Part shown: positions 1,074-44,423 of the stretch, one piece after another
How the letters are laid out: every line of letters begins with the position of its first letter
Position numbering within the stretch: the stretch's first letter is position 1
NCBI GenBank assembly: GCA_016794595.1
Contig: JAEUJN010000019.1
Location: 62,001-126,000 of the forward strand
Source of the DNA: Kineosporiaceae bacterium
Lineage (GTDB): Bacteria; Actinomycetota; Actinomycetes; Actinomycetales; Kineosporiaceae
Direction of reading: 5' to 3'
DNA length: 64,000 nt
Notes under the pieces: model-generated
What the model was told of the DNA's origin: nothing
Database searches by the model: none
The model's input: the letters and a program-made list of their open reading frames with translations, nothing else
Position numbers and translations under genes: made by a program

Positions 1074-1113
1074 CGTGATCATGCACTTTCACCGTTGAAA
1101 GTGCATGATCACG
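1074..1113. repeat. Palindromic junction element, copy 1
   Basis: Two perfect 18-bp arms, beginning CGTGATCATGCACTTTCA, flank a 4-nt loop (CCGT). It lies between the convergent ends of smpB and the GGDEF-EAL gene. It is the first of four related copies in the window. A bidirectional transcription terminator is the simplest role, although there is no T-tract. Confidence 0.8.
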
Positions 1114-3562: not shown

Positions 3563-3935
3563 GGGGGTGACTGGCTTCGACGGCGGATGTCGGGGCAGGT
3601 GAAGCGGGCCGAGTAGGTGACGTGATCTCGTTAATCCTCGTCGCAAACCAATAACTGCCAACAAGCAGAGCACCGAGCACTTCGCCCTCGCCGCCTGAGC
3701 GAGGCAAGTCTCCGTCAGCCCCGAGCACGCCTTCGGCCCGGGTGCTGACGTCATCCAGAAGGCCACTGGCTGAAAGCCCGGTCACGGAGCTGACGCGACA
3801 CAAACAGTGACTGAGCCCGGCTCGGCGACTCGTCTGCGTGATCGCCGGGGCTGAGAAAGGCCACAGCAGACTGCGCCCGGAGAAGAACTGGCTCGTCACC
3901 GGCGGACGCGGGTTCGATTCCCGCCACCTCCACCA
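3563..3935 (+). ncRNA. ssrA: Transfer-messenger RNA (tmRNA, one-piece)
   Basis: The 5' end GGGGGTG and 3' end CACCTCC plus ACCA form the tRNA-like acceptor stem (seven pairs, one G-U). A T-arm GGTTCGATTCC precedes the 3' end and CCA is encoded. The length of 373 nt is typical. Within it the resume codon follows AATAACT, and a tag reading frame ends in ALAA. It rescues stalled ribosomes together with SmpB, encoded just upstream. A strong hairpin terminator follows within 6 nt. Confidence 0.97.
3657..3698 (+). other. tmRNA proteolysis tag reading frame
   Basis: The resume codon GCC starts the tag ANKQSTEHFALAA, followed by TGA. The final ALAA is the degron read by ClpXP. The preceding AATAACT matches the usual alignment signal for the resume codon. 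Confidence 0.92.
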
Positions 3936-6098: not shown

Positions 6099-6153
6099 TC
6101 ACGGACTGTGGGCCGGCCGTGGGCAGGGCGGCCGCCCTGCCCACGGCCAGGGC

Positions 6154-13702: not shown

Positions 13703-13766
13703 CCCCACCCCCTCGTGATCATTCACTTTCGACCCGTCGAAAGTGCATGATCACGAGGGGGTGGGG
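13703..13766. repeat. Palindromic junction element, copy 2 (longest)
   Basis: 30-bp arms with one mismatch (position 13723) around a CCCG loop. The inner core is CTCGTGATCATTCACTTTCG; the outer part is a CCCCACCCC/GGGGTGGGG extension. It lies between the convergent helicase and TrpRS-like genes. Confidence 0.85.
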
Positions 13767-28073: not shown

Positions 28074-28592
28074 ATGGCCGGTGCGCGCGCCAGGCCGCTG
28101 CCGTTCGACCCCGTGGCCGAGGCCCGCGGCCACTGGGAACGCGCCGGGTGGGCGGAGGCCGCGCCGGGGATGGCCGCCGTCACCTCGATCATGCGCGCTC
28201 AGCAGGTGCTGCTGGCCAGGATCGAGGAGGTGCTGCGCCCGCACGGGCTGAGCTTCGCGCGGTACGAGGTGCTGATGCTGCTGTCGTTCAGCCGCACCGG
28301 CGCCCTGCCTCTGGCGCGCCTGGGCGAGCGGCTGCAGGTGCACCCGGCGAGCGTGACCAACCTGGTCGACCGGCTCACCGCCGCCGGCCTGGTGAGCCGG
28401 GTGGCACACCCCAGCGATCGCCGGGCCACCCTGGCCGAGTTGACCGAGGCGGGCAGGTCCCTGGCCCTGGCGGCCACGGCGGACCTGAACGCCACGGTGT
28501 TCGCCGCGCCCGGCCTGACCCCGGACGGCGTCCAGCGACTGGTCGAGGTGCTCACCGAGCTGCGCCGCGACGCCGGCGACTTCACCCCGTGA
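28074..28592 (+). CDS. MarR-family transcriptional regulator
   Basis: 172 residues. A winged-helix core (about 60-125): GLSFARYEVLMLLSFS, ARLGERLQVHPASVTNLVDRL (recognition helix) and GLVSRVAHPSDRRA (wing). ATG 28074 lies 2 bases after icmF, so the two are probably co-transcribed; the regulator may respond to an acyl-CoA or aromatic effector, which is inference. Its stop codon TGA (28590-28592) lies inside palindromic junction element copy 3. Confidence 0.9.
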   Translation: MAGARARPLPFDPVAEARGHWERAGWAEAAPGMAAVTSIMRAQQVLLARIEEVLRPHGLSFARYEVLMLLSFSRTGALPLARLGERLQVHPASVTNLVDRLTAAGLVSRVAHPSDRRATLAELTEAGRSLALAATADLNATVFAAPGLTPDGVQRLVEVLTELRRDAGDFTP

Positions 28593-28632
28593 TCATGCAC
28601 TTTTGGTCATTCGAAAGTGCATGATCACGGGG
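28585..28632. repeat. Palindromic junction element, copy 3
   Basis: Perfect 19-bp arms CCCCGTGATCATGCACTTT, with a further T-G and G-C pairing near the loop. The element contains the TGA stop codons of both convergent genes: MarR at 28590-28592, and pncA on the minus strand at 28625-28627. Confidence 0.85.
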
Positions 28633-44222: not shown

Positions 44223-44307
44223 TGGTGCGGGAGGCGGGACTCGAACCCGCACGCCCGAGGGCACAGGAACCTAAATCCTGCGTGGCTGCCAGTTACACCA
44301 CTCCCGC
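44223..44307 (-). tRNA. tRNA-Leu (anticodon TAG)
   Basis: Read on the minus strand: acceptor GCGGGAG pairs with CTCCCGC; the anticodon stem CAGGA/TCCTG holds loop TTTAGGT (anticodon TAG). A long variable arm (GCCC-TC-GGGC) marks a class II tRNA, and the T-arm is GCGGG TTCGAGT CCCGC. CCA is encoded. With 85 nt including CCA it reads CUA and CUG codons. Confidence 0.96.
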
Positions 44308-44364
44308 AGACCGGCCATCCAGACTACCTCACCAGGTCACCGTCCCCGGCGGCGAGAGGCGCTT

Positions 44365-44405
44365 CGTGATCATGCACTGTCGATCATCGGAAGTACCTGA
44401 TCACG
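44365..44405. repeat. Palindromic junction element, copy 4 (degraded)
   Basis: The left arm begins CGTGATCATGCACTGTC; the right arm matches 13 of 17 positions. It lies 19 bases beyond the bcp stop, between bcp and tRNA-Leu. Mismatches suggest decay of an older copy. Confidence 0.7.
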
Positions 44406-44423
44406 AGAGGGCGAGGTTGTGGC

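Follow-up and report, generated by a model that had tools for sequence, protein, structure and literature searches.

A polar gene-end element of a Kineosporiaceae genome and other Actinomycetes, with a putative role in transcription termination

Introduction

Why does a bacterial chromosome carry the same long palindrome behind several of its genes? The question is raised by a stretch of 64,000 nucleotides from a Kineosporiaceae bacterium (contig JAEUJN010000019.1, positions 62,001 to 126,000; hereafter the window), in which four such palindromes lie at gene junctions. A first-pass annotation described them as one dispersed, maintained element and proposed a bidirectional terminator, a REP-like sequence, or a protein-binding or mobile element. 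Here, we followed the palindromes through the whole genome (G000; 4.95 Mb, 123 contigs, 99.4% complete) and through other genomes of the phylum. Tentatively, and with somewhat less than even confidence, we favor a polar gene-end (3'-end) signal of chromosomes that would be read by a factor and would putatively terminate upstream transcription.

Results

Four palindromes at gene ends in the window

The first copy (1074-1113, core 1075-1112) occupies the convergent junction between smpB (+) and the gene of a GGDEF-EAL protein (-). Direct reading of the sequence gives a stem of 18 bp with a loop of 4 nt, and a C-rich stretch on the transcript strand (1051-1073, +) leads from the smpB stop codon to the palindrome. 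This smpB gene (580-1050, +), with the palindrome right after it, lies near the tmRNA gene (3563-3935, +). At the second copy (13703-13766, core 13715-13754), a helicase-like gene (+) converges with a gene (-) that has no Pfam match; the palindrome has extended C-rich and G-rich arms and 31 stem positions, 97% complementary. The third copy (28585-28632, core 28589-28628) fills the convergent MarR/isochorismatase junction with a perfect stem of 19 bp, and the TGA within GTGATC forms the stop codon of both genes (ends at 28592 and 28625). The fourth copy (44364-44406, core 44366-44404) has 21 stem positions, 81% complementary, and a right half-site with three mismatches. It is located 3' of bcp (-), and the junction is codirectional because the tRNA-Leu gene beyond it (44223-44307, -) is on the same strand as bcp.

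The four palindromes were confirmed at their annotated places: the 16-mer core has 8 matches (half-sites) in the window at up to 3 mismatches, compared with a mean of 0.11 and a maximum of 2 in 100 shuffles. Gene calls and a tRNA scan likewise bore out the placement of three copies between convergent genes and of the fourth just past bcp. A scan of the window against Rfam at the gathering threshold returned only tmRNA and tRNA, with no named family for the palindromes. Another convergent junction of the window is filled by a different, perfect 17-bp inverted repeat (6115-6148), which falls outside this palindrome family.

A uniform palindrome family in the genome

The search for the core across the genome placed the four copies in a dispersed family. 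The exact half-site GTGATCATGCAC occurs 142 times in G000, all within the stretches that we read, in 81 entries. Base composition predicts about 0.15 occurrences, and a reversed-pattern control gave 0; this control is lenient, since it contains CTAG, a generally rare word. The script returned 82 entries, which became 81 once the fold-back centre L091 was dropped, and L092, a duplicate that mirrors L090, was left out. As four of the 81 entries (L001, L007, L102, and L108) stem from two palindromes that an insertion sequence has cut in half, the true count of places is closer to 79. The 53-kb contig C54, to which L091 belongs, seems to consist of two perfect inverted copies around a palindrome (0 mismatches in the 2-kb arms checked). 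It is probably an assembly fold-back artefact, and the 142 half-sites are therefore inflated by about three. The entry L020 consists of a single half-site between divergent genes. Intergenic stretches of G000 (L020:1501-3012 and a few other junctions) also seem to contain a second recurrent motif, GCTCATGCTCC and its complement GGAGCATGA.

The palindrome core reads GTGATCATGCACTTTCGA-nnnn-TCGAAAGTGCATGATCAC and measures exactly 40 bp in 61 of 68 paired cores. The loops had been described as drifting, but genome-wide they are not free: one of three 4-nt centres (ATAG, ACAG, CCAG, or the complement) occupies 50 of 67 paired copies, although none of the four window copies carries any of these. 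The proposed co-evolution of the outer arms was upheld. They are C-rich before the core and G-rich after it and pair with each other beyond chance, the mean perfect run past the core being 5.0, compared with 2.3 when left and right flanks are permuted (largest of 5000 permutations, 3.1).

The arm positions of the core are conserved at 92-100%, and such uniformity within one genome is what would be expected under the main rival explanation. According to it, the element is a selfish REP-like repeat spread by copying or gene conversion, which comes to rest at gene ends since its insertion does no harm there, any termination being a side effect. We consider this somewhat unlikely in the light of the evidence on direction, conservation, and mobility given below.

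Placement behind genes

Genes were called by a simple codon-usage script trained on G000, which was applied to the other genomes too. None of the 81 entries lies inside a gene. Among the 76 entries with both neighbours, 43 are in convergent, 28 in codirectional, and 5 in divergent junctions; three assignments were changed by scanning the window and ten loci for tRNAs (43, 27, and 6, respectively, before this step). Copies are thus not mostly within genes or upstream of them. By comparison, convergent junctions make up 28 of 246 element-free control junctions, which come partly from overlapping stretches, 9 of 58 junctions in the whole window, and 70 of 321 in the pooled set. The annotated preference for convergent junctions therefore holds genome-wide (43 of 76 against 28 of 246). 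In one convergent entry (L108), the facing gene encodes the transposase of an insertion sequence; leaving this entry out gives 42 convergent entries of 75, with p values of 1e-20, 1e-15, and 1e-10 against the three sets, respectively.

The element also keeps close to the preceding gene in codirectional gaps, where it lies a median of 14 bp behind the stop of the upstream gene and 66 bp ahead of the following start codon (27 cases). Compared with uniform placement in these gaps, the median gives p = 0.0006, or p = 0.008 if the 30 bp before the start are excluded; excluding 50 bp gives p = 0.13 for the median and 0.011 for the mean. In 15 of the 81 entries, the TGA of GTGATC supplies the stop codon of a neighbouring gene. 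One long convergent gap (L088) contains two elements, each about 25 bp behind the stop of its own gene. Taken together, a dispersed and maintained family at convergent junctions and other gene 3' ends, as proposed, is supported.

Hairpin and C-rich lead

Element-bearing gene ends (80 of 112 folded) have a median MFE of -41 kcal/mol compared with -21 kcal/mol for mononucleotide shuffles, the fold groups still including the fold-back entry L091. A U-tract after the hairpin (at least 6 T in 8) was found at 0 of the 80 element-bearing gene ends examined. An intrinsic terminator would combine a stable hairpin just past the gene, which is present, with a U-rich tract, which is absent. The C-rich, G-poor stretch before the end point that marks Rho-dependent terminators is present: from stop codon to element, the transcript strand contains 64% C and 15% G (56 stretches, G000), compared with 44% and 34% at element-free convergent gene ends and 38% and 35% at codirectional ones.

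These strong gene-end stem-loops, whose outer arms change in complementary fashion, could also belong to an ordinary hairpin terminator of the U-less, "I-shaped" kind that acts independently of sequence and was duplicated by chance in G000. U-poor structured ends are known from Streptomyces; in the high-GC species Streptomyces clavuligerus, PMC8269248 counts 353 of 1,427 mapped 3' ends as structured and U-poor. However, the structure of element-free convergent junctions hardly exceeds that of shuffles, the medians being -27.25 and -27.0, respectively, and the paired difference having a median of -1.6. We regard a plain hairpin as quite improbable, a judgement that also draws on the occurrence of the core in other genomes.

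The 11-mer core in other Actinomycetes

The 12-mer is enriched in only a few genera among 118 relatives, and across 396 genomes of the phylum, no count outside G000 exceeds 3. The 11-mer GTGATCATGCA has at least 20 copies in nine of 394 Actinomycetes genomes: G013 (413), G580 (328), G000 (150), G034 (106), G016 (90), G526 (45), G564 (35), G614 (28), and G550 (24). The next genome, G810, has 19, and most others have 0 to 8. Six Planotetraspora genomes contain 290 to 1083 copies, the highest number being that of Planotetraspora thailandica, and further counts are 84 in Bailinhaonella thermotolerans, 134 in the MAG RYN_229, and 6 in Kineosporia rhizophila. The same core thus recurs in some distant relatives, so it looks like a widespread, undescribed gene-end signal.

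The 11-mer is followed by a tail specific to each genome: CTTTCGA in G000, CGTTCGCCCC in G016, CGCCAGCGCA in its congener G034, and ATCCCGCCAC in G013. Units are arranged as inward pairs, outward pairs, single sites, or tandem arrays. In G526, 22-bp tandem arrays are found, the largest one seen lying directly behind a gene and containing 19 motif copies at up to 1 mismatch (L249:2064-2470). Planotetraspora (L031-L076) has symmetric arrays with a period of 54 nt, GTGATCATGCA-(tail TTCG)-N14-ACCTGCG-N12, with up to several units per arm and a unit number that varies between species at the same junction. In Planotetraspora, 41 palindrome centres have a neighbour on either side, and of these, 15 lie in convergent, 22 in codirectional, and 4 in divergent junctions. 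A plain hairpin accounts poorly for an 11-mer kept across distant families, also as single sites, and for 22-bp tandem arrays that form no such hairpin. The same conservation and the single, tandem, and inverted arrangements lend indirect support to the protein-binding element proposed in the annotation.

The spread is patchy. In G541, the only other genome examined of the genus of G580, GTGATCATGCA is missing altogether, compared with 328 copies in G580; the signal is dispensable, since one congener does without it. The junctions of G541 were also searched for a repeated 11-mer of its own; among 45 intergenic stretches, no 11-mer recurred in more than 3. Patchiness, genome-specific tails, and uniformity within a genome are well explained by concerted evolution of a selfish repeat, whereas a core common to several families despite differing tails argues against it.

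High copy number (1083 in Planotetraspora thailandica) and genome-specific dialects might alternatively point to a motif with no link to transcription, serving DNA uptake, the nucleoid, or chromosome organisation. DNA uptake sequences, too, are known to form inverted pairs where genes converge. Uptake sequences are, however, spread over coding and non-coding DNA regardless of transcription, whereas 0 of the 81 entries in G000 lie inside genes, tandem arrays occur, and direction follows transcription in the other genomes, as described next. We consider such a motif very improbable.

Direction and conservation of the unit

Direction was analyzed in 76 clusters from seven other genomes, retained only if they had an exact motif and neighbours on both sides; 28 are convergent, 32 codirectional, 9 divergent, and 7 inside called genes. 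It was judged in codirectional gaps, or by the nearer stop in convergent gaps. In 35 clusters, all motifs point in one direction, and of the 26 that could be assessed, 21 read with the preceding gene and 5 against it (p = 0.0025). The 41 mixed clusters comprise 33 inward, 5 outward, and 3 other arrangements (p = 4e-6). G013 is an exception, with one-direction clusters in the same (2), opposite (2), and divergent (1) arrangement. In the 25 nt ahead of the motif, C exceeds G in 33 of 37 one-direction clusters, 11 of the 37 being from G526. The polar signature of direction and C-rich lead does not require the hairpin. Gene-relative direction and a C-rich lead at single sites, too, speak against a selfish repeat.

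Orthologous junctions were compared between Planotetraspora species. Substitutions affect 36 of 607 motif columns, 416 of 1772 spacer columns, and 329 of 3206 flank columns, so that the 11-mer changes four times less than the spacers. The comparison consists of seven non-independent pairs, its motif columns were located with up to 2 mismatches, which somewhat favours conservation, and spacer changes are possibly inflated by misalignment because unit numbers differ between orthologous arrays. A motif conserved at orthologous sites where spacers are not is a further point against a selfish repeat. The tails behave differently: P. thailandica has GCAGAAGTTCG at junctions where the other species have GCACAGGTTCG-like tails. 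Similarly, a comparison of 14 and 8 loci of G016 and G034 yielded a single orthologous junction (75% identity), which has the element in both genomes with differing tails. Site position can thus outlast tail sequence. Across genera, positional conservation by gene family was rejected for want of a clear excess, as 9 of 99 reciprocal-best pairs are tagged in both genomes and about 7 are expected from the overall tagged fraction.

Mobility

REP and REPIN elements with RAYT transposases are dispersed, extragenic, and palindromic, with genome-specific variants. The G000 element agrees in form, being a short, dispersed, extragenic palindrome in many copies (81 entries, 0 inside genes). In REP elements, the stem has a conserved GTAG at its foot; in G000, this tetranucleotide is absent there, and the consensus before the stem is CCCTC, followed by GTGATCATGCA. 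The RAYT domain Y1_Tnp (PF01797) had 0 matches in six motif-bearing genomes, G000, G016, G034, G002, G006, and G011. Of the ten genomes searched, only G005 gave a match, and the 12-mer is missing from it; in the control, 5 of 14 genomes matched, E. coli among them. The annotated likeness to REPs therefore stands for the form and fails for the transposase, and mobility by RAYT was rejected, which also weighs against a selfish REP-like origin. Single and tandem directional sites and a core shared by distant families are further differences from REPs.

An insertion sequence with an rve integrase core, which we take to be IS30-like, has four matches in the genome, at contig ends and apparently from two copies. 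All four sit at palindromes, at the same point inside them (L108:2489-3650, L007, L102, and L001, on contigs C74, C8, C71, and C1). The palindromes act as insertion targets, since both copies sit inside them. REPs are likewise targets of some insertion sequences, according to PMC1525189, and this likeness counts in favour of a selfish repeat.

Among 50,697 phage records, 6 matched the 40-nt core, as did a single one among 72,556 plasmid records, and all these matches were weak and partial; a phage or plasmid origin was therefore rejected, and the result also counts against a selfish repeat. IMG/VR yielded four tandem matches, all in near-identical unrelated DNA and perhaps coding repeats, and no inverted matches. 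An autonomous transposon between the facing arrays that flank a gene at L152 was likewise rejected, because the arrays sit behind the stops of neighbouring genes; nothing mobile was seen when the L152 translations were inspected by eye. A CRP-type operator was also discarded, its spacing being a misfit to the CRP operator consensus. Identity between G541 and G580 is 66-92% in matched pieces and 70-78% in long ones. With this divergence and a different gene order, no clean empty sites could be read in G541 (one of five G580 stretches compared).

Discussion

The position after stop codons, the direction, the C-rich lead, the conservation of the 11-mer, and the matching of tails within a genome are read directly from the sequences. 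Across genomes, the position behind genes, the direction, the C-rich lead, and the 11-mer are constant, and the tail, the arrangement, and the presence of the element vary. The polar gene-end signal that we favor probably serves transcription termination, and for the palindrome of G000, the annotated bidirectional terminator is the best functional guess. Several observations weigh against a gene-end signal: the 5 divergent entries of G000, the 9 divergent and 7 intragenic clusters elsewhere, the split in direction in G013, the lack of the motif in G541, the overlap of tagged genes between genera that hardly exceeds expectation, and a stop proximity that is no longer significant on the median once 50 bp before the start are excluded.

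Read along transcription, the unit would consist of a C-rich, G-poor stretch, then GTGATCATGCA, and then the genome-specific tail, and transcription of the upstream gene would end at this unit. Most likely, the C-rich RNA would load Rho, and a predicted DNA-binding protein on GTGATCATGCA, or the RNA hairpin in the palindromic form, would stall the polymerase. The hairpin might then cap the transcript against 3' exonucleases. In G000, two units stand head to head and give a two-way hairpin; because they face each other, one 40-bp palindrome could serve both convergent genes. The differing tails of the genomes hint at a recognising factor whose specificity shifts in the course of time, with subsequent homogenisation of the copies in each genome. 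In a narrower form of the polar gene-end signal, which we consider unlikely, the element would be a host-wide, factor-dependent, and direction-specific terminator, at which a putative protein reads GTGATCATGCA and the tail and stops RNA polymerase from one side. Such sites would work alone, in tandem, or head to head and, within a genus, would all be acquired, lost, or retuned together.

Eukaryotic rDNA has terminator boxes of the TTF-I/Reb1 type, which are bound by protein, act in one direction, and often follow genes as tandem copies. The tandem directional boxes are alike, but the domain of life and the polymerase differ, which leaves an analogy only. I-shaped and U-poor ends of high-GC actinobacteria share a strong gene-3'-end hairpin without a U-tract and possible two-way use. 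As far as PMC8269248 describes them, they are defined by structure with no shared sequence, whereas the present element has a specific 11-mer that also occurs without a hairpin.

The stoperators of cluster A mycobacteriophages are another system for comparison. According to PMC9283540 and PMC6550527, elongation can be halted there by a protein of two domains that sits on an oriented, asymmetric site; the sites are short, many per genome, located in short intergenic spaces, and correlated in direction with transcription, and related genomes have related but distinct motifs. The element described here is likewise a short, asymmetric site oriented with transcription (21 of 26; 33 inward against 5 outward), G013 being the exception. 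The two DNA-binding domains of the stoperator repressor (PMC9283540, PMC6550527) would fit a constant core with a variable tail. As far as these accounts go, however, stoperators are phage sites for a phage repressor, whereas the present sites are chromosomal, at host gene ends, and often in palindromes or arrays. Searches of the open literature for the strings GTGATCATGCAC, GTGCATGATCAC, and TGATCATGCA and by subject listed no paper that is relevant by title (for TGATCATGCA, among 20 listed of 45), subscription journals being mostly outside their coverage; the string GTGATCATGCAC occurred in a paper on yeast mtDNA and in one on Streptomyces ArgR, and GTGCATGATCAC in none.

Gene ends in GC-rich actinobacteria are poorly understood, and the U-tract of classical terminators is missing from many transcript ends. 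A conserved sequence that marks gene ends directionally and is present from tens to about a thousand times in a genome would offer a concrete handle on termination in these bacteria, and its palindromic form may be of use as a compact two-way terminator for actinobacterial engineering. It raises the questions of which factor reads the signal and how hundreds of sites change their tails together.
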